The notes beneath the pieces are model-generated. The model made no database searches. It was not told the DNA's origin and saw only the letters and a program-made list of their open reading frames with translations. Shown here piece after piece: positions 1 through 8,329 of a DNA stretch of 23,622 nt. The stretch is from a virus: positions 1 to 23,622 of IMG/VR virus record IMGVR_UViG_3300030117_004323; one strand, given 5' to 3'. The position numbers and the translations under genes were made by a program. Numbering within the stretch: position 1 is the stretch's first letter; each line of letters starts with the position of its first letter.

Positions 1-1650
1 GCTTCCAACTGCAACATTATAATCTGCTGTAGTATTGGCATCTAAGGCTTGAGAACCTAGGGCTGTATTCTGTGAACCAGTTGTGTTTGCTGCTAATGCA
101 CTCCTTCCAACGGCTGTATTATTACTTGCCGTTGTGTTTGCAGTTAAGGCACTATTACCGATTGCAACGTTATTACTTCCAGTAGTATTAGCATCAAGTG
201 CATTTACACCCAGTGCATTTAGAGCAGTACCAGTCGTGTTAACAAGTAAAGCATTTTTACCAACAGCAGTGTTATCTCCTCCAGTTGTGTTTGCTTTGAG
301 TGCTGCTGTTCCGATTGCCGTATTGCTTGCCCCTGTAGTATTTGCTTCTAAAGCAAGAGAACCCATACCAACATTACTAGCACCTGTTGTATTTGTTGTT
401 AATGCTCCATAACCAACAGCTGTATTTTCATTAGCTGTGGTATTAGCATCTAAAGCATTAGCACCTACGGCTACGTTAAATGTTCCAGTTGTGTTTGATA
501 GTAAAGCATCATGTCCAACAGCTGTGTTGTTATCGGCTGTAGTGTTGTTTTGTAATGCACTTCTGCCTAAAGCCGTATTTGCTCCTCCTGTTGTGTTTAA
601 AAGTAACGAACTTAGTCCAACCCCTACATTTTCTTCTCCTGTTGTGTTTGCCCCTAAAGAGTTATAACCAACAGCAGTATTAAATGATGCTGTGGTGTTT
701 GCATCTAAAGCTCTTCCACCTACAGCTACATTATTTTCTCCTGTTGTGTTTGCTCCTAAAGCATCTGAACCAACAGCAGTATTAAGACCTCCAGTTGTAT
801 TTGCATCTAATGAATTTGCACCCACTGCTACGTTTTGTGCTCCAGTTGTGTTATTTTCTAAAGTTTTATAACCTAGAGCAGTATTATCACCAGCAGTAGT
901 GTTATTAGTTAATGAATTAAATCCAAGCGAAGTATTGTAATCTCCTGTTGTATTAGCATCTAAACTTAAGGCTCCAACTGCTACGTTTCTTTCCCCAGTT
1001 GTGTTTGCCACCAATGCGTCTTTACCTATTCCTGTGTTATTGGAAGCTGTAGTATTTGCAAATAAAGCACCTTGTCCTACTGCTGTATTAGATCCTCCTG
1101 TTGTATTTTCACTTAAAGCTTGATCTCCGACAGCTACGTTTGGGCCTCCAGTTGTGTTAGCATCTAAGGCTCTAGAACCTACGGCTGTGTTGTTAGTTCC
1201 AGTTGTGTTTAAATCTAACGCATGATAACCAACTGCAGTGTTATTACTGCCAGTAGTGTTTGCAGATAAAGCTCCCTTACCAACAGCCGAGTTTTGTGCT
1301 CCAGTTGTGTTTTCTGATAATGCAACATGACCCACAGCAGTATTATCATCAGCAGTTGTATTTGCATCAAGAGAAAATGCACCTACGGCTACATTCTGCG
1401 TACCAGTTGTATTAGATAGTAAGGCATTTTTACCAAAAGCATCATTATAGTTTGCAGTTGTGTTACTTGATAAAGCATCCTTACCAACAGCGGTATTATC
1501 AATTCCAGTTGTATTTGCTGATAAAGAACCATTACCTACAGCAGTATTTGATGCTCCACTTGTGTTTGTTGTTAGTGCTGAATTGCCAATAGCAGTATTA
1601 TTTCCACCAGAAACAGAAGCATCTAAAGCACTTTCCCCAAGAACAGTGTT
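1..1650 (-). repeat. Tandem 51-bp coding repeats in the fibre gene
   Basis: Thirty-two full units of 51 bp and one partial unit lie head to tail with no indels; I translated every unit and all keep the same frame. The best-kept codons encode N-x-A-V-G at the unit start and N-T-T-G near its end. The DNA of neighbouring units varies well beyond wobble positions, so this is an old, diversified array and not a fresh satellite. It continues past the left edge. Confidence 0.92.
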
Positions 1651-1938
1651 ACCAGCAACAGAATTTGCACCTTTACCAATATTTACAGAATTTATTGTTC
1701 CATCAACAGCAAATGCCGGCCCACCAGCCAAAGTAAAAACATTTACATGAGCATTATTTGATGTATTTCTAAGCTGCATGATACTTGTAGAAGTATTTGC
1801 AAAAAATTGACTTGCGTAGTTTGTAGAAGGTGCTGATGATCCAGAATTATTACTTGAAATTGCTAATAATGCATTATTTATATCAGTTCTGACGTTGGCT
1901 CCTGTGGAGTTATCTATAACATAATCATGTTGAGCCAT
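1..1938 (-). CDS. Tail fibre with 17-residue tandem repeats (partial, 3' end outside window)
   Basis: The frame opens at ATG 1938 and stays open for 646 codons to the left edge, so the C-terminus is missing. The start follows a weak TAGG ribosome site 7 bases upstream. Residues 1-96 form a non-repetitive head beginning MAQHDYVIDN, a start I recognise from fibre proteins of uncultured marine phages; this part probably attaches to the tail tip. From residue 97 there are 32 complete 17-residue units and a partial one, pattern N-T/V-A-V-G-x-x-A/S-L-x-x-N-T-T-G-x-x. The repeats recall the beta-roll head repeats of trimeric adhesins, so a trimeric fibre shaft is inferred. It follows the J-like gene after a 42-base gap, the usual place for a host-range fibre. 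The tip and any chaperone domain lie outside the window. Fibre role is confident; receptor unknown. Confidence 0.85.
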   Translation of the reverse strand, partial: MAQHDYVIDNSTGANVRTDINNALLAISSNNSGSSAPSTNYASQFFANTSTSIMQLRNTSNNAHVNVFTLAGGPAFAVDGTINSVNIGKGANSVAGNTVLGESALDASVSGGNNTAIGNSALTTNTSGASNTAVGNGSLSANTTGIDNTAVGKDALSSNTTANYNDAFGKNALLSNTTGTQNVAVGAFSLDANTTADDNTAVGHVALSENTTGAQNSAVGKGALSANTTGSNNTAVGYHALDLNTTGTNNTAVGSRALDANTTGGPNVAVGDQALSENTTGGSNTAVGQGALFANTTASNNTGIGKDALVANTTGERNVAVGALSLDANTTGDYNTSLGFNSLTNNTTAGDNTALGYKTLENNTTGAQNVAVGANSLDANTTGGLNTAVGSDALGANTTGENNVAVGGRALDANTTASFNTAVGYNSLGANTTGEENVGVGLSSLLLNTTGGANTALGRSALQNNTTADNNTAVGHDALLSNTTGTFNVAVGANALDANTTANENTAVGYGALTTNTTGASNVGMGSLALEANTTGASNTAIGTAALKANTTGGDNTAVGKNALLVNTTGTALNALGVNALDANTTGSNNVAIGNSALTANTTASNNTAVGRSALAANTTGSQNTALGSQALDANTTADYNVAVGS

Positions 1939-1980: not shown

Positions 1981-4900
1981 TTAACTACCACGCCCAAATC
2001 CAGTAGCAGCATATTTGAAATTTCTATTTACATGACTTGAGCCATTTTTAATATCTATATTGAAGCCACTACCAGTGATAGAAGATAAAGCAAAAAAATC
2101 TCCTGATTCTGCATTTTCAATTGTTATTCCTATTGAAGGTAAAACTGAATCTGCTGCAACGCTAGTACCAGATTGACCTGTAAAAAATGTATTTGTAAAT
2201 GTTACTGACTTTTGCGAAGTTCCAGAAGCAATAAAACCACCAGTAGATGCCCCTGCATTACCAAGACTTGTTTCTGTTCTGCTTTCTAATTCGGCTGTAT
2301 AGCCTAGTTGGTCAATTTCAATACTTTGTGCGGGGTCATCAGAATCCATTTCACATCTGAATTTAAAACCACGGCCTACATAAGTACCGTTTACAAATGG
2401 GTTAAATCTTGTAAAGTTTGCTCCATAAGTACATGAAGTTCCACTTGATATTGTTGCACTTGTAGCTGAAGTAACAGTAAATGTGTTATCTGTTTTTGAT
2501 GCTATTTCATAGTTACCATCTGTGGCAGAACCAGCAGTGAAATCTATCACAACAAAATCACCGACAGAATATCCATGGGAACTCTTTGTGATTGTTATGG
2601 TTGTACCACTTTGCTCATAGGTGGCTGAAACTGACAAATCAGGATCAAGGTCAGTTGTAGCAACTAACAATAATGCACCAACATCAACCGCAGTAGCACC
2701 GTCAAAGTCTGTCCATGTATCAATATTTCCTGATCTTTTATCAATTAGATCATTTGGATAAAAACCTTGCGTAACAAAATGCCTGAGTAGTCTTAAAGGT
2801 TGTTTTCCACCTAAATCCAAAGTATTAGCAAATTCATATGAGCCACCTGTAATATCAACAGCACCTAAAAAGTCAAAATCATTAATATCATCAAAATCTG
2901 TCACATCATCTAATAATTCAAGAGAACCAAGAACAAGGCCATTTACTTCATCACTGAAAAAACAATCTACTTTTGCACCAGCAAAGGGTGTTGCATCTAA
3001 ATCTTCTCTATCAACAAGAACAGAAAGTTTTGGAAAAGGGTCAGGGCTGTTAACTATTACAGAAGCTTCCCCAGAACTTAGCCTGCCACCATCATCTCTA
3101 AATTTTAAAATATATTCACCTGAAACAATATTTGGAACAATAGTTTCACTGATGCTACCCGGAAGAGCAGGAACTACATCAACGCTGTTTGTAAAAGTAC
3201 CAGTACCATCTGTCAGGTTTGATGATCTGACTACCACGTTTCCACCATGAATTACATCAACATCTGTGGATTTATCAAAACGTAATCTCACAAACTGATC
3301 TGATATTGGTTCGATGCGTAAATTCTGCACATCTGCTGGCAGGGCTGTTTTACCAATTGTTGTGATCGATGTTGTTGCTGGATTTGTGCTTGGTTTTCCT
3401 AATGCGTTATAACTGAACACTCTGATTTCATAAGTTCCATTTTTTGTTTCAAAAATAGTGAAGTCTGGCCTTGTAATTCTTTCTGATATAAAGTTTTCAT
3501 TCTCAAATCTATATTGCACCATGTATTCAGTAACACCGAGCACAGGCTGCCATTGAATAAACAGTTTTGATACGGCACGGTTGTTGAGTACGACAATCTG
3601 CTCTGAACTCGACAAGTTACTTGGGGAAGGTTTTAGTTCTGTGAGTGTTGTTATTGTTCTTGCTGCTAATGCCGTACCATCTTCAACATTTGAATATTTA
3701 GATGAATTATGAGCAACGGCTGTGATTTGATAGGCAAGTTGACCTACTTCTGTTACACCAATCACCCTAAAAGTCTGAAGTTGAACTGTTGTATTTTCTA
3801 TTACCCAAACACTGTTTGATGGTGGAGTTGATGAAAATGCAGAAGATACTGTTATTGTTGTTCCTGATATTGTGTCTATTGTTTTTGTTTCAAGTGTGCC
3901 ATCTGCAAGTATTACTGATAATGTCGCAGAACCTGTTGTTGCCAAATCTGTATTATTTTCATCATCAACAATTATCTGTGTTGTAGATACTCCTGTTTTT
4001 ATACGACCACCTCTTCGCACCCCTGCCCTTAAAGGATCAGCAATATTTATAACAGCACCCGGTCTGACAATAGTTCCAGATTCAAGGGAAGTCGTAAAGG
4101 AAACAACTTCAGCTTCATTTGATTGTGTGTATAGAAACCATTTACCAAGTCGTGAAGCCTGACCTCTTGATGTTGTGGCAAAACCTCTTAAATTTTTTGT
4201 AACGACCCCATACTTTGCCTGTAATGCAGTATCTTCAACGGTTTCATAATCTATTTCTTGAGTTTCATTATTAAAATATGCAACATTAACAACTGTCACT
4301 TTTGAATTTCTTGCTGAATTAGTATATGAAAACCCCTGTTCTGTAACATTTGAAAGGTTAAATAAATAACTTGGATCAGTTGGTCTGTCCTGTGTAATTA
4401 ATATTGTGCCAGCCGAATAGAAAGGCATAACACGCATCACAGAACATAAATCATTGATAAGGTTATATGCTTGTTTCTGATTTTGTATCACTACGTTACA
4501 GCTAAATCTTGGTTCTGTTCCTCCAAATCCATCATCTACCTGTTCTGCACAATAAACAGAAGCTGAATAAAAACTAAAAACATCTAACTGTGTTGTATCT
4601 ATCTGATCACCAAATCCTTTGGATGTTGTTAATAAATCATATAAAATCCATGCTGGATCGTTTGTAAATTCTTTTAAAGTAACTGAAACATCTCCGCTAT
4701 TTGTTGCACTTTCGGCGGCTGTAACTGTAAACGTGTTTACATCTGCACTAGTTGCTATCGCAAAATCTCCATTAATAGCAGAGCCAGATGTATAGTCAAT
4801 ACTTACAATATCACCAATCGCAAGGCCATGATTCGAAATAGTTATTGTGACAGTAGTGTCTGATTGTGAGTAAGTACCTGTGTCAGTTTTAAAACTGCCG

Positions 4901-5775
4901 TTGAAAGTACCTGAGTAAGAAATAGAGCCATCAGATTGAACCGTTCCATTATGTGGGATTTTTATTTTTGTTCCACGGACTTTATACATCCGTTTTGGAA
5001 TAGTGGGAAAGGTCTGTGCATCAAATCTAATTGCAACATGAGCCGAGTTTGCATATGCTCTTTGTTCATTTATTATTTCTGTAAACGATGACCAAAATGA
5101 ACTATTTTGCAAAGTTGTTTCTGTACTGTCATCCGTTGTTCTGTTCACTCTGATCGTTACAGGAAAAGAAGTGCCAGATGCAAAATTAATTTTATAGTCT
5201 CTAAAATATGTGCTGGCAGTTCTTCCTTTTACAGTATCAGTTATAACAGTTGTTGTTGTTCCATCATTTTCAATAGTTTGAATATTTATTGCAACTTCCG
5301 CACCATTTATATCACCATCATCTTCAAATTTTTGCAGAGATGGAAAACCAAGAGTGACCCTAACGGCATTAACAGAAGTATTTGTAATTGATCTTGATAC
5401 AGGACTTGCTTTTGTTACAGCAACACTGACACTCGTTTCAGTTTCTATTTCAGAAATACCCTGTATTGCAGTTTGACTAGGAGTGCCAAATCTAGGTTCA
5501 AAAGAAATATTAGGAAAATTAAAATCAGTATCTGCTGGACTTGTATTGCTTGCCGTTGATTGTAAAACTTGAGTGCCATTTAAAAATACATCTTTCAAAG
5601 CTGCATTGTTGTAAGCAGTTGTTCCCTGAGTAAGGCCAGCAGCACTTGGGAAACCTTCGATAACACCAGATCCAAGAAGTTCAACTAATGTCTGAAATTG
5701 TTTTGACGCAAGAACATCACCTGTAACTGCTGGATCAGTGAGCCTTGTATTTTCATCAAAAGCTGGAATTGTCAT
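1981..5775 (-). CDS. J: Tail tip / host specificity protein, lambda gpJ family
   Basis: A 1264-residue protein forming the central tail tip. The stretch from about residue 270 to 570 follows lambda gpJ closely as I remember it, including DDGFGGTEPR, the QDRP motif and TSRGQA. Fibronectin-III-like beta segments follow at about 700-880 (LFIQWQPVLGVTEYMVQYRF). Two copies of a ~70-residue beta-rich domain interrupt it: at about residues 296-367, exactly between the gpJ segments YSGTFNGSFK and DPAWILYDLLT, and at about 1047-1117, between VATTDLDPD and FNPFVNGTYVGRGFKF. The C-terminal 100 residues are Ser/Thr/Gly-rich. Its ATG overlaps the stop of gene I (TAATG), with GAGG 10 bases upstream. It is somewhat longer than lambda J, mainly through the insertions. 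The fibre gene follows, so receptor contact may be shared. Confidence 0.93.
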   Translation of the reverse strand: MTIPAFDENTRLTDPAVTGDVLASKQFQTLVELLGSGVIEGFPSAAGLTQGTTAYNNAALKDVFLNGTQVLQSTASNTSPADTDFNFPNISFEPRFGTPSQTAIQGISEIETETSVSVAVTKASPVSRSITNTSVNAVRVTLGFPSLQKFEDDGDINGAEVAINIQTIENDGTTTTVITDTVKGRTASTYFRDYKINFASGTSFPVTIRVNRTTDDSTETTLQNSSFWSSFTEIINEQRAYANSAHVAIRFDAQTFPTIPKRMYKVRGTKIKIPHNGTVQSDGSISYSGTFNGSFKTDTGTYSQSDTTVTITISNHGLAIGDIVSIDYTSGSAINGDFAIATSADVNTFTVTAAESATNSGDVSVTLKEFTNDPAWILYDLLTTSKGFGDQIDTTQLDVFSFYSASVYCAEQVDDGFGGTEPRFSCNVVIQNQKQAYNLINDLCSVMRVMPFYSAGTILITQDRPTDPSYLFNLSNVTEQGFSYTNSARNSKVTVVNVAYFNNETQEIDYETVEDTALQAKYGVVTKNLRGFATTSRGQASRLGKWFLYTQSNEAEVVSFTTSLESGTIVRPGAVINIADPLRAGVRRGGRIKTGVSTTQIIVDDENNTDLATTGSATLSVILADGTLETKTIDTISGTTITVSSAFSSTPPSNSVWVIENTTVQLQTFRVIGVTEVGQLAYQITAVAHNSSKYSNVEDGTALAARTITTLTELKPSPSNLSSSEQIVVLNNRAVSKLFIQWQPVLGVTEYMVQYRFENENFISERITRPDFTIFETKNGTYEIRVFSYNALGKPSTNPATTSITTIGKTALPADVQNLRIEPISDQFVRLRFDKSTDVDVIHGGNVVVRSSNLTDGTGTFTNSVDVVPALPGSISETIVPNIVSGEYILKFRDDGGRLSSGEASVIVNSPDPFPKLSVLVDREDLDATPFAGAKVDCFFSDEVNGLVLGSLELLDDVTDFDDINDFDFLGAVDITGGSYEFANTLDLGGKQPLRLLRHFVTQGFYPNDLIDKRSGNIDTWTDFDGATAVDVGALLLVATTDLDPDLSVSATYEQSGTTITITKSSHGYSVGDFVVIDFTAGSATDGNYEIASKTDNTFTVTSATSATISSGTSCTYGANFTRFNPFVNGTYVGRGFKFRCEMDSDDPAQSIEIDQLGYTAELESRTETSLGNAGASTGGFIASGTSQKSVTFTNTFFTGQSGTSVAADSVLPSIGITIENAESGDFFALSSITGSGFNIDIKNGSSHVNRNFKYAATGFGRGS
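2425..2635 (-). repeat. Inserted ~70-aa beta-rich domain, copy J2
   Basis: This encodes residues ~1047-1117 of the J-like protein. It shares the landmarks of the other copies in diverged form: YEQSGTTITIT, SHGYSVGDFVVIDFTAGSA, DGNYEIAS, NTFTVTSA. It interrupts the C-terminal region between VATTDLDPD and FTRFNPFVNG. It is clearly less similar to copies J1 and M than those are to each other. Confidence 0.75.
4674..4886 (-). repeat. Inserted ~70-aa beta-rich domain, copy J1
   Basis: This encodes residues ~296-367 of the J-like protein. Landmarks in order are TGTYSQS, TTVTITI, NHGLAIGD, IDYTSGS, GDFAIAT, NTFTVTAA and VSVTL. By hand alignment about three quarters of positions match the copy in gene M (7853-8076), and parts of the DNA also match. 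Remembered lambda J has the flanking segments adjacent, with no equivalent domain, so this is a clean insertion. Confidence 0.8.
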
Positions 5776-6488
5776 TATGTAGTTCCCTCTAGCTGTACTG
5801 TATCAACCCCAGAACTGATGACTACTGAACCAGTGAAAACCTCACCATAAATTATCGGGACACTTACCCCAGACACACTGACGTTCTGGATGCCTGAAAA
5901 CGAATAAGAGTTTGCCATTTGTGGATCTAATGCGCCATCAGGTTCGGAAGCTCCAAAGCCACTAGCAGCAGCACTGGAAGATTCAAAAGGGGCAGGGGTT
6001 GGAGCTAATAATGAAGTGACACCACTTATTGCTAAATCAGTAGAAACAGCACTGGCAACAGCTCCGACAACAGGAATTGTAGGAATAAAATTAGCAACAG
6101 TACTTACTGCCCCAGCAACAGTTCCTACAGCACCTATAGCTGCTGATGTTATACCTCCTACAACAGGAATAGCTGAAGCAGCAGTAGCTACAGCCGCAGC
6201 ACCAGATGAGAAAGCACCAAAAATAGCTCCGATAGCACCAAATGATCCTGTTGCAATAGGTATTATCTGAATATCACCTCGGCCTTTCATTGATAAAAAA
6301 TCCAAAGAAACATCCATATTATTCATTTTTATCTTGTAATATTGTTCACTCATATGAGTTTCAACCTCTGGAAAATTACACAACAAAAAACGAATCGCCT
6401 CTGCCGGACTTGAAACGGCTGCCTCAAAATACGATGAACCGAGGAATTTTCTTAATCTTCCATATACTTTTATTCTTTTAAGTTTCAT
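5775..6488 (-). CDS. I: Tail tip assembly protein, lambda gpI family
   Basis: A 237-residue protein. Residues 1-80 form a ubiquitin/ThiS-like alpha-beta start (MKLKRIKVYGRLRKFLG) typical of lambda gpI. Residues about 80-165 are a long Ala/Gly/Val/Ile-rich stretch that could be membrane-active. The last 40 residues (NVSVSGVSVPIIYGEVFTG) match the conserved end of the family. In lambda, I acts with K, L and J to build the tail-tip initiator and is not found in the mature tail. The ATG overlaps the end of gene K by 11 bases and has AAGG 9 bases upstream; the stop overlaps the ATG of J. Order K-I-J is the lambda order. Family confident; role of the hydrophobic segment is inference. Confidence 0.87.
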   Translation of the reverse strand: MKLKRIKVYGRLRKFLGSSYFEAAVSSPAEAIRFLLCNFPEVETHMSEQYYKIKMNNMDVSLDFLSMKGRGDIQIIPIATGSFGAIGAIFGAFSSGAAAVATAASAIPVVGGITSAAIGAVGTVAGAVSTVANFIPTIPVVGAVASAVSTDLAISGVTSLLAPTPAPFESSSAAASGFGASEPDGALDPQMANSYSFSGIQNVSVSGVSVPIIYGEVFTGSVVISSGVDTVQLEGTT

Positions 6489-7179
6489 ATCTATATACCT
6501 TTTTTGTGGCTTGTATATATTTTAAATCATATATTTCTCTACAACTTAATTGTTTTATATTATGGTGTAATATTGTTTGATCTCCAATATATAAAGCTAC
6601 ATGGTTAAGTTTGTCATAGATTCCCTGCATTAATAAAACATCATTTACTTGAATATCATCATGCACTTTTTTAAAACCTGATTCTGTTAAAATTTTTTCA
6701 AAATATGGATTATTTGCAAAAGTTCGCAAATCTTTTGGTCTATAACATCCTCTTAAAATTATATTTAAATTTTCTTTGAAATAGTCTGTGATCAAACTCC
6801 AACAATCATGTTTTCCCCAAATCCAAGTTCTACCAATTAGGTTTGGTGTTTTCCATCCACTAGGCTTAAAAGAAAACCACTCCTTCATCCTTACGCTGTA
6901 AATATGTGAAGGTAAATCTAAATGTTCGCAACTTGCTTTATCATTATCAGATGGTTGCGGTGGATCATAAGGATGTGAATGAACAATCCCGATTATCTCT
7001 CCTGTATCTTCACATTCTGCCCAATCGTCAGGATCAATTACAAAATATTCAAAGCCAGATTCTGCAATATTTTTACAAGGCCAGTAGGTTTCTTTTCCCT
7101 TTATAACTGCAAGCAATCCACAGGACTCTTTTGGCATAGATTCTTCAGCGTGTTTTGTAGCATCAATTTTCCAAGTCAT
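6478..7179 (-). CDS. K: Tail assembly protein, JAMM peptidase plus NlpC/P60, lambda gpK family
   Basis: A 233-residue two-domain enzyme. The N-terminal JAMM/MPN metallopeptidase domain shows E18 (KESCG), H67-S-H69-P and S77-x-x-D80, so the metal-binding set looks complete. The C-terminal NlpC/P60 cysteine peptidase domain shows H124-D-C126-W with the likely nucleophile C126 and H193 in NHVALYIGD. In the lambda family K is a tail-tip component; NlpC/P60 activity is thought to cut peptidoglycan at entry, and JAMM domains cut isopeptide-type bonds. Its ATG overlaps the stop of gene L (ATGA). Nothing is missing or shifted. Substrates are not visible from the sequence. Confidence 0.92.
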   Translation of the reverse strand: MTWKIDATKHAEESMPKESCGLLAVIKGKETYWPCKNIAESGFEYFVIDPDDWAECEDTGEIIGIVHSHPYDPPQPSDNDKASCEHLDLPSHIYSVRMKEWFSFKPSGWKTPNLIGRTWIWGKHDCWSLITDYFKENLNIILRGCYRPKDLRTFANNPYFEKILTESGFKKVHDDIQVNDVLLMQGIYDKLNHVALYIGDQTILHHNIKQLSCREIYDLKYIQATKKVYRYET

Positions 7180-7754
7180 GCGTTTACAAAAGTACCTACC
7201 CCGGGGAAATCTTTTCTTGTAACCTGTCTTTTTGGCGCACGAACTCCCTGTAAATCAAGGGCTGAAACAAGTTCAAACTGTACAATATCTCTATTTTCTA
7301 TAATTTTTCTATTTATAAAATAAATTTCCTGTGGTAGTTCTGCCGTGCTGTCTGGTGTGCCGAAAGGATTTTGATTTGAAGGAAAGTTTGCAGCATCTAA
7401 AAACTGGCTGAGAGTGCGTATGCGAACAAATTTTGCACCTTGTAGATCATTAAATGGTGTTGTGGCATTAACTGTTGCCATTAATGCTGTAATTGTTCCC
7501 AATATATTAGAAACTGTTATTATCGGTCTTGGTAACGTCCCACGGCCAGAATATTCAAAACCTTCAGCTTGTATTGGGAATTTATCATAAGTATTACCTT
7601 GCCATATTATTGAAGCATTACTGTTCATTCCAACTCCCGAATGAAACCTTGAAACATCTGTGGAGCCATGTAATGCAGATACTAAAGTCAAAGTATAAAG
7701 TTCAATAACAGATTTGTTTGTTAGTGCCTGTAATTCTGCTGTAGGTAATCCCAT
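7176..7754 (-). CDS. L: Minor tail protein L, lacking the C-terminal cysteine domain
   Basis: A 192-residue protein with the lambda gpL N-terminal domain: IIWQGNTYDKFPIQAEGFEYSG is followed by LPRPIITVSN and, further on, FLDAANF, each with a clear lambda counterpart as remembered. Family members usually continue, after the P-x-R-x-V segment, into a cysteine-rich Fe-S-binding domain. Here the protein stops 16 residues after PKRQV, and it contains no cysteine at all. Its end overlaps the ATG of K by ATGA, and its ATG overlaps the stop of M (TAATG), so the shortened form is built into the operon. L forms part of the tail-tip ring around J. Whether another protein replaces the missing domain cannot be seen. 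Confidence 0.85.
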   Translation of the reverse strand: MGLPTAELQALTNKSVIELYTLTLVSALHGSTDVSRFHSGVGMNSNASIIWQGNTYDKFPIQAEGFEYSGRGTLPRPIITVSNILGTITALMATVNATTPFNDLQGAKFVRIRTLSQFLDAANFPSNQNPFGTPDSTAELPQEIYFINRKIIENRDIVQFELVSALDLQGVRAPKRQVTRKDFPGVGTFVNA

Positions 7755-8329
7755 TACGGTTCAAATACCTCCCTGAAAGTGCAGTTTAATATTGCTCTGT
7801 TGTTATATGGAATTGTTTTAGTCCATGATTGACAAACATATTTACCAGCCCCTGATAAAGTTACAGAAACAGTACCACTATCAGTTGCGGAAGAAGCCGC
7901 TGTTACAGTTAATGTATTTTGATCAACAGCCGTAGCTATTGCAAAGTCGCCATCTGTAGGAGAACCACTTGCGGTTGAAGTATAGTCAATTGTTATAACA
8001 TCACCAATAGCAAGACCATGATTCGTTATTGTAATTGTGACAGTTGTTCCGCTCTGGGAATAAGTACCTGTTTTTGTACCGCCTTCGGCTGGTGGGGTAA
8101 ATGTAAAACTTGCCTGATCATTTACACGACTTCTTAAAAAAGCCTCTATGATGTCAGATTCTTCTTCTGAAACGTTAAAAGTTAAATCATATATTTTTGG
8201 GTCTTGTGTAAGTGGAAGGCCAAACAATGCTCTAAATTCATAACCATCACCAAGTCTTGTCGATCTGATTCTCGGTGCGCTTGTTTTTCTCATGCCATAA
8301 GTAGGCTGAATAGAAGGAAAAGTTGCCAT
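7754..8329 (-). CDS. M: Minor tail protein M with an inserted beta-rich domain
   Basis: A 191-residue protein; lambda gpM has about 110. Residues 1-83 (RLGDGYEFRA, then YDLTFNVSEEESDIIEAFL and FTFTPP) and 161-191 (YVCQSWTKT, CTFREVFEP) together make one normal gpM. Between TPP and KYVCQSW sits a ~74-residue domain also found twice in the J-like protein. Removing it would restore a lambda-sized protein. M joins the end of the tape measure to the tail tip. A good ribosome site (GAGG, 5 bases before ATG) lies at the end of the tape-measure gene, and the stop overlaps the ATG of L. Family assignment is firm; the function of the insert is unknown. Confidence 0.88.
   Translation of the reverse strand: MATFPSIQPTYGMRKTSAPRIRSTRLGDGYEFRALFGLPLTQDPKIYDLTFNVSEEESDIIEAFLRSRVNDQASFTFTPPAEGGTKTGTYSQSGTTVTITITNHGLAIGDVITIDYTSTASGSPTDGDFAIATAVDQNTLTVTAASSATDSGTVSVTLSGAGKYVCQSWTKTIPYNNRAILNCTFREVFEP
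7853..8076 (-). repeat. Inserted ~70-aa beta-rich domain, copy M
   Basis: This encodes residues ~85-159 of gpM. Landmarks are TGTYSQSGTTVTITI, NHGLAIGD, IDYTST, DGDFAIAT, NTLTVTAA and VSVTL. It is closest to copy J1, with a three-residue extension after IDYTS. It splits gpM between FTFTPP and KYVCQSW. Confidence 0.82.

Follow-up and report, generated by a model that had tools for sequence, protein, structure and literature searches.

The window analysed here is a virus record of 23,622 nt with a G + C content of 38%. Its minus strand carries a lambda-like tail-tip operon that encodes a tape measure protein, M, L, K-like and I-like proteins, and J. The distal tail (Dit-like) protein gpM (191 amino acids; positions 7754–8329, minus strand) matches PF05939 (E 2.2e-13), and its predicted core superposes on lambda gpM. 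It is followed on the same strand by gpL (192 amino acids; 7176–7754; PF05100), a K-like protein with JAB and NlpC domains (6478–7179), an I-like protein (5775–6488) and the central tail-tip protein gpJ (1264 amino acids; 1981–5775; PF24801, PF13550, phrog_31). In the clade of the window, gpL (7176–7754, minus strand) stops at about 192 amino acids. The four-cysteine Fe-S domain found at the C-terminus of lambda gpL is missing from it but retained in gpL of Synechococcus phage S-H1 (L164). The window begins with an open-ended ORF of 646 amino acids (1–1938, minus strand), seven stretches of which match phrog_23837, phrog_6002 and phrog_4636; it is a repetitive virion or fibre protein truncated by the contig end.

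Two of the tail-tip proteins, gpM and gpJ, carry three copies of one module, all on the minus strand, and gpL of the window is free of it. The copy in gpM (residues 87–158; about 7856–8071), a predicted four-stranded beta barrel, takes the place of a hairpin turn after a helix. The first copy in gpJ, J1 (residues 299–367), is exactly 207 nt long (4675–4881) and lies between the equivalents of residues 265 and 266 of lambda gpJ. The second, J2 (residues 1050–1117; 2425–2628), lies near the C-terminus. Local protein alignment gave scores of 262 for M and J1, 183 for J1 and J2, and 174 for M and J2, against maxima of 57–72 in 300 shuffles; the three segments are homologous by this measure, in agreement with a preliminary description that had assigned them to one shared domain. 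The same description had considered the M-type and J1 copies to be closely related, and they are 78% identical at the protein level, with DNA that can be aligned over about 215 nt at 70.5% identity. A search of the entire window record found no module copy beyond M, J1 and J2.

The phage endosialidase beta-barrel family (PF12195, End_beta_barrel) has a curated cut-off of 35 bits, which is exceeded by J1 (37.4 bits). The M and J2 copies, which on their own score below it (31.8 and 21.2 bits), are nevertheless clear homologues of J1 at the level of sequence. The nearest solved structure by sequence is the endosialidase of phage phi92 (4hiz; E 2.8e-4), and a profile search returned 4hiz (E 0.0011) and 1v0e (E 0.0014). 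An AlphaFold2 model of gpM, predicted with alignment rows from the collection loci only (pLDDT 80), splits into a core and an insert (residues 82–161). The core superposes with all of its 109 residues on lambda gpM (8iyk_E; Z 13.6, rmsd 2.0) and is predicted to have the Dit/gpM fold. The insert folds in the model as one independent barrel, which superposes on 4hiz (Z 9.8, rmsd 1.8 over 76 residues) and 3ju4 (Z 8.6), with rmsd values of 1.8–1.9. The FCCH domain of ubiquitin E1 enzymes, which has the same predicted fold in a different biological context, fits the insert about equally well (Z up to 8.7; rmsd 2.0 for Uba1). A Pfam search at E values up to 1 yielded no FCCH match among the module sequences, and among the papers of the library searched there was none tying FCCH domains to phage tail tips.

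The model of gpJ is of low confidence (pLDDT 61), with local pLDDT values of about 70–90 in J1 and J2, and the predicted models of the M insert, J1 and J2 have the strand order long-short-short-long in common. Among the structure matches listed for the J model, fibronectin-type domains and lambda J dominate, and neither J1 nor J2 has a barrel match of its own, which is no argument against the fold. That J1 and J2 form barrels is suggested mainly by their homology to the other sequences and additionally by the strand order. We regard all three copies as representatives of a single accessory module, a beta barrel of the type found in phage endosialidases, as predicted from PF12195; the fold itself is already known.

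Among the relatives, surveyed in 320 loci, segment-free forms were found for every site. The module is missing from 84 of the 280 M ORFs, which are then 110–118 amino acids long, and from the J2 site of 21 of 137 complete J proteins. The J1 site is empty in 94 ORFs, which read like FNGTFKTDKEYSNDPAW; at the junctions, the empty relatives have SYSGTFNGTFKTDKEYSNDPAW where the window has FKTD-(module)-KEFTNDPAW. The clean joins of the flanks at all three sites and the separate insertion of one homologous beta module at each of them, both proposed in the preliminary description, are borne out by these module-free relatives. The outcomes that this description had named as refuting it are not observed: each of the three sites has relatives without the segment, and the M segment is modelled as a barrel of its own.

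In a tree of the M core, from which the module columns had been removed, a single gain suffices to explain the module in gpM (branch support 98/95; 97% of bootstrap trees), and the module-bearing clade includes Prochlorococcus phage MED4-184. The M module is an old acquisition that took place a single time. The J2 module is likewise an older insertion and common in relatives; the cultured phages MED4-184 and MED4-117 possess both the M and the J2 modules, and J1 was not seen in either of them. Both modules diverge together with their flanks. In pairwise comparisons with a loose threshold for a young module between old flanks, 2 of 19,503 M pairs and 2 of 5,050 J2 pairs showed this pattern. The lowest module pS among pairs with saturated flanks was 0.256 in M (12,831 pairs) and 0.273 in J2 (2,844 pairs), and no such pair of either kind had a module pS below 0.25. 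The median pN/pS was 0.08 for the M module and 0.05 for the J2 module, and both are under strong purifying selection. A generally high mobility of the module is rejected for M and J2 by this divergence in step with the flanks. The earlier proposal that the module is mobile between tail-tip genes thus holds for J1 but not as a general claim.

J1 is a recent insertion, an exact piece of 207 nt that moved without its surroundings. Outside the insert, the J DNA of the window can be matched to empty J genes as far as both borders, and similarity to M copies covers precisely the 207 nt between these borders. Carriers of J1 besides the window are only the contigs 2788500479_000022 and 2788500479_000063, which are 99.4% identical to each other; pattern scans of both J1 junctions over all viral contigs revealed no further carriers beyond these two. 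The J genes of the window and of locus L034 differ by a pS of 0.3–1.07 along the gene (about 0.6), whereas their J1 copies (4675–4881 in the window, 6658–6864 in L034) differ by a pS of 0.075 between flanks of 0.6–0.78. At both ends, no more than a few bases separate this shift from the module border. Since the flanks are saturated (pS about 0.6) and J1 is not, J1 has moved recently as a unit, either passing between the J backgrounds of the window and L034 or entering both from one source after their divergence. The nearest empty J genes (L187 and L189) have a pS of about 0.35 to the J gene of the window, and J1 therefore arrived later than that split too. Purifying selection is not the cause of the low-pS island, because the nonsynonymous differences between the two J1 copies (0.091 per site) are as many as the synonymous ones. 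The resulting pN/pS is about 1.2 (14 vs 4 changes), compared with at most 0.40 in other module pairs, and the excess over the differences between J1 and M has a Fisher p of 0.008, computed from rounded counts. The high ratio points to relaxed or diversifying change after arrival, and it could be that functional constraint on J1 has yet to set in. No clear microhomology was found at the M-to-J junctions.

Among the M modules, those of L038, L039 and L042 are closest to J1 (87% identity in protein, 82% in DNA), ahead of the module in the window's own gpM (78% and 70.5%). In a DNA tree, J1 is nested in M beside these three M modules (support 99/96 for the five-row set). The synonymous distance of J1 is about 0.43 to the L038-type M and 0.61 to the M of the window (codon bootstrap p about 0.02), and it is also lower to the M modules of L038, L039 and L042 than to other M modules (p about 0.003) and to J2. 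In a further search for the donor, no M module exceeded 84% DNA identity to either J1 copy. J1 is likely an M-type module, and its sequence makes the M gene of another phage lineage, of the L038 type, the likely donor. This donor assignment is a likely one, short of proof, because AU tests on the 207 columns, which have low power, do not reject other placements (J1 outside M, p 0.44; J1 beside the M of the window, p 0.42; range of p 0.42–0.45).

Other origins of J1 have to be weighed against this one. The preliminary description had suspected recent copying between M and J1 within this genome, and J1 might accordingly have been copied from the window's own gpM, or the M module of the window might have been exchanged after the copying. 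The 78% protein identity of the two copies and the AU test that leaves J1 beside the window's M (p 0.42) speak for such an event. The DNA comparison over about 215 nt does not, given that M modules of other lineages are closer to J1 (82% vs 70.5%), and the synonymous distances (0.61 vs about 0.43, codon bootstrap p about 0.02) point the same way, as does the parallel case of L034, whose J1 is similarly distant from its own M (pS 0.58). Copying from the window's own M is disfavoured on all three counts, and we consider this origin improbable; the nearest sequences to J1 are the M modules of other lineages and the J1 of L034. The window and L034 are the sole J backgrounds with J1 in this sampling, which would also fit an ancestral part of J that was lost from nearly all relatives, or an assembly chimera. 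An ancestral segment, however, should have diverged as much as its flanks (pS about 0.6 instead of the 0.075 observed), and a chimera is at odds both with the presence of J1 at the identical codon position in contigs of another sample code and with the lack of a near-identical repeat of the insert in the window, so that this explanation is hardly credible.

The module is more widespread than the preliminary description had noted. In relatives of the window it is also found in gpL (16 ORFs, at residues about 36–105), and gpJ of other lineages has at least three further N-terminal module sites, at residues about 121–220 (L045, L080, L054 and L348), about 289–354 (L054 and L348) and about 292–363 (L315 and L318, phages in which M is empty). 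Outside this group of phages, the major capsid protein of cyanophage P-SSP2 (L320:634-1944) matches PF12195 with 36.4 bits at residues 290–348, adjoining a Gp10A-like capsid domain, which would mean many copies of the module on the capsid. The module is also located at the N-terminus of a tail tube protein of NATL1A-7 and in a tail fibre of a myovirus. A fibre-like ORF after J (L315:6306-7523) joins the module to a pectate-lyase-like domain and also matches End_N_terminal (endosialidase) weakly. A bolder reading, which we consider doubtful, takes the module for a self-contained domain cassette of about 207 nt that has jumped between virion genes time and again with exact boundaries (from M to J, from J to J, and also to L and the capsid gene), through a type of recombination with a preference for its edges and not through rare illegitimate events followed by selection.

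The modules of the window resemble the barrel of the endosialidases of phages K1F and phi92 in sequence (J1, 37.4 bits), in predicted fold (4hiz, Z 9.8; 3ju4, Z 8.6) and as accessory barrels in a host-contact protein, but here the module sits in gpM, gpL and gpJ and is not accompanied by a catalytic propeller. They are also reminiscent of the 'evolved Dit' proteins, in which insertions of carbohydrate-binding modules into distal tail proteins are established (PMC7291167); transfer of an evolved Dit to a phage whose own Dit is plain restored both infection of and adsorption to EPS-bearing lactococci (PMC10688798). As in the evolved Dit and Tal proteins of phages of lactic acid bacteria, an accessory beta domain is housed in a loop, either of Dit (here gpM) or of Tal (here gpJ), and is variably present in relatives. 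The extra loop domain of gpM is absent from related Dits (the 84 insert-free ORFs among 280), as in evolved Dits, but it is not inserted in a peripheral galectin domain: the core of gpM is a short ring domain of the lambda type, without a galectin domain as carrier, and the insert replaces a hairpin turn. The fold is also a different one, the host is presumably Gram-negative or cyanobacterial, one type of module serves M, L and J, and carbohydrate binding is putative. In the marine roseophage R4C, the insertion domain of the Dit protrudes outward, and hub and megatron bear sugar-binding domains (PMC10276861). The tail tips of R4C and RcGTA share with the window the extra barrel-like Dit domain, further domains in hub and megatron, and the setting of a marine siphophage; in R4C, the domains in each protein are unrelated, whereas here one module family serves all. 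Domains common to otherwise unrelated virion proteins are also known from the domain mosaicism of phage proteins (Smug et al. 2023, PMC10684548); in the present case, a pair of donor type and recipient is resolved at the nucleotide level between saturated flanks.

The favoured reading, which we hold to be probable though far from certain, is that accessory modules entered the two proteins at three places: a single old gain put one into a loop of gpM, a likewise old insertion brought J2 into the C-terminal portion of gpJ, and a recent one brought J1 into a gpJ loop. There they would provide outward contacts to surface material, probably glycans. J1 would have arrived as an exact piece of 207 nt from or through another phage lineage, by a recombination event that left both flanks in the state of their own lineage. 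The modules are expected to project outward from the tail tip and may add weak, multivalent contacts to host surface material, in a manner similar to the carbohydrate-binding insertions of evolved Dits. Glycans are plausible as ligand class, and probable by this analogy; avoidance of neutralisation, the other role suggested in the preliminary description, is speculative. The lambda tail tip contains six gpM and three gpJ (PMC10721106); if gpM is hexameric and gpJ trimeric here as well, each tip would display 12 modules. Endosialidases have three polysialic-acid sites, of which the barrel is one, and the barrel is also a hotspot of host discrimination, with loops that tell hosts apart (PMC12632334). 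The residues aligned to the sialic-acid-site serines S460 and S468 of endosialidase (numbering of PMC12632334, matched by spacing and alignment) are Asp in 99% and 100% of the M copies and in 79% and 90% of the J copies. Polysialic acid is thus an unlikely ligand of the window-type modules, and the ligand is not transferable from the endosialidase family, because both serines align with the near-invariant Asp.

The fold alone is no sign of sugar binding either, because it is shared by the ubiquitin E1 FCCH domains (Z up to 8.7). In E1 enzymes, the FCCH fold is not known as a sugar binder. This would suit a structural role, in which the modules brace the contacts that gpJ, gpL and the gpM ring make with one another, or just add bulk to the tip, without a ligand. 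So would the occurrence of the module in a major capsid protein and in a tail tube protein, both of which it may serve as a scaffold. In lambda, moreover, the proteins that bear modules here contact one another (PMC10721106). Against bracing, relatives without the module at each of the sites evidently assemble, and the many unrelated insertion sites, tail fibres included, are a better fit to surface display than to a specific contact; we regard a purely structural role as unlikely, yet as the most serious competitor. A view of the modules as passengers without selective effect, which loops tolerate, would agree with the pN/pS of about 1.2 in J1, but the strong constraint on M and J2 (medians 0.08 and 0.05) and their retention across clades make this very improbable.

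Compared with the known fold and the known principle of accessory tail-tip domains, including additions of the sugar-binding type, what is new is the view of one domain jump into gpJ at the nucleotide level and the occurrence of one module family across M, L and J. Remote homology is the usual basis for inferring that domains have been shuffled among phage virion proteins, whereas the jump of J1 can be read in the DNA: the empty site is known, the inserted sequence is of donor type and has exact borders, the flanks are saturated, and change since the arrival has been relaxed or diversifying. The idea of the evolved Dit, developed for phages of Gram-positive bacteria, is extended to lambda-like marine phages with another fold, and the natural pairs with and without module (M, L, and J with and without J1) allow tests of an accessory tail-tip domain in the adsorption of ocean phages.

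Of the records linked to a host, the closest is a contig of 18 kb (L400, CACGZD010000010.1) in a single-cell genome labelled Alphaproteobacteria AG-426-I04. Its M is 90% identical to that of the window and its tail operon is very similar, with a J that lacks J1. Cultured relatives at about 53% infect Prochlorococcus MED4, and the host signals of the group differ between an alphaproteobacterial single-cell contig and phages of Prochlorococcus. A different insert of about 130 residues, with the motif YYCTTHGNAMG, is present in gpL of L034 (3458–4450) and L163 (7418–8407). It has no Pfam family match, follows FLDAANF or FLDAVNF, and appears cupredoxin-like by eye; the tail tip of L034 combines two kinds of extra domain, the barrel module and this gpL insert.
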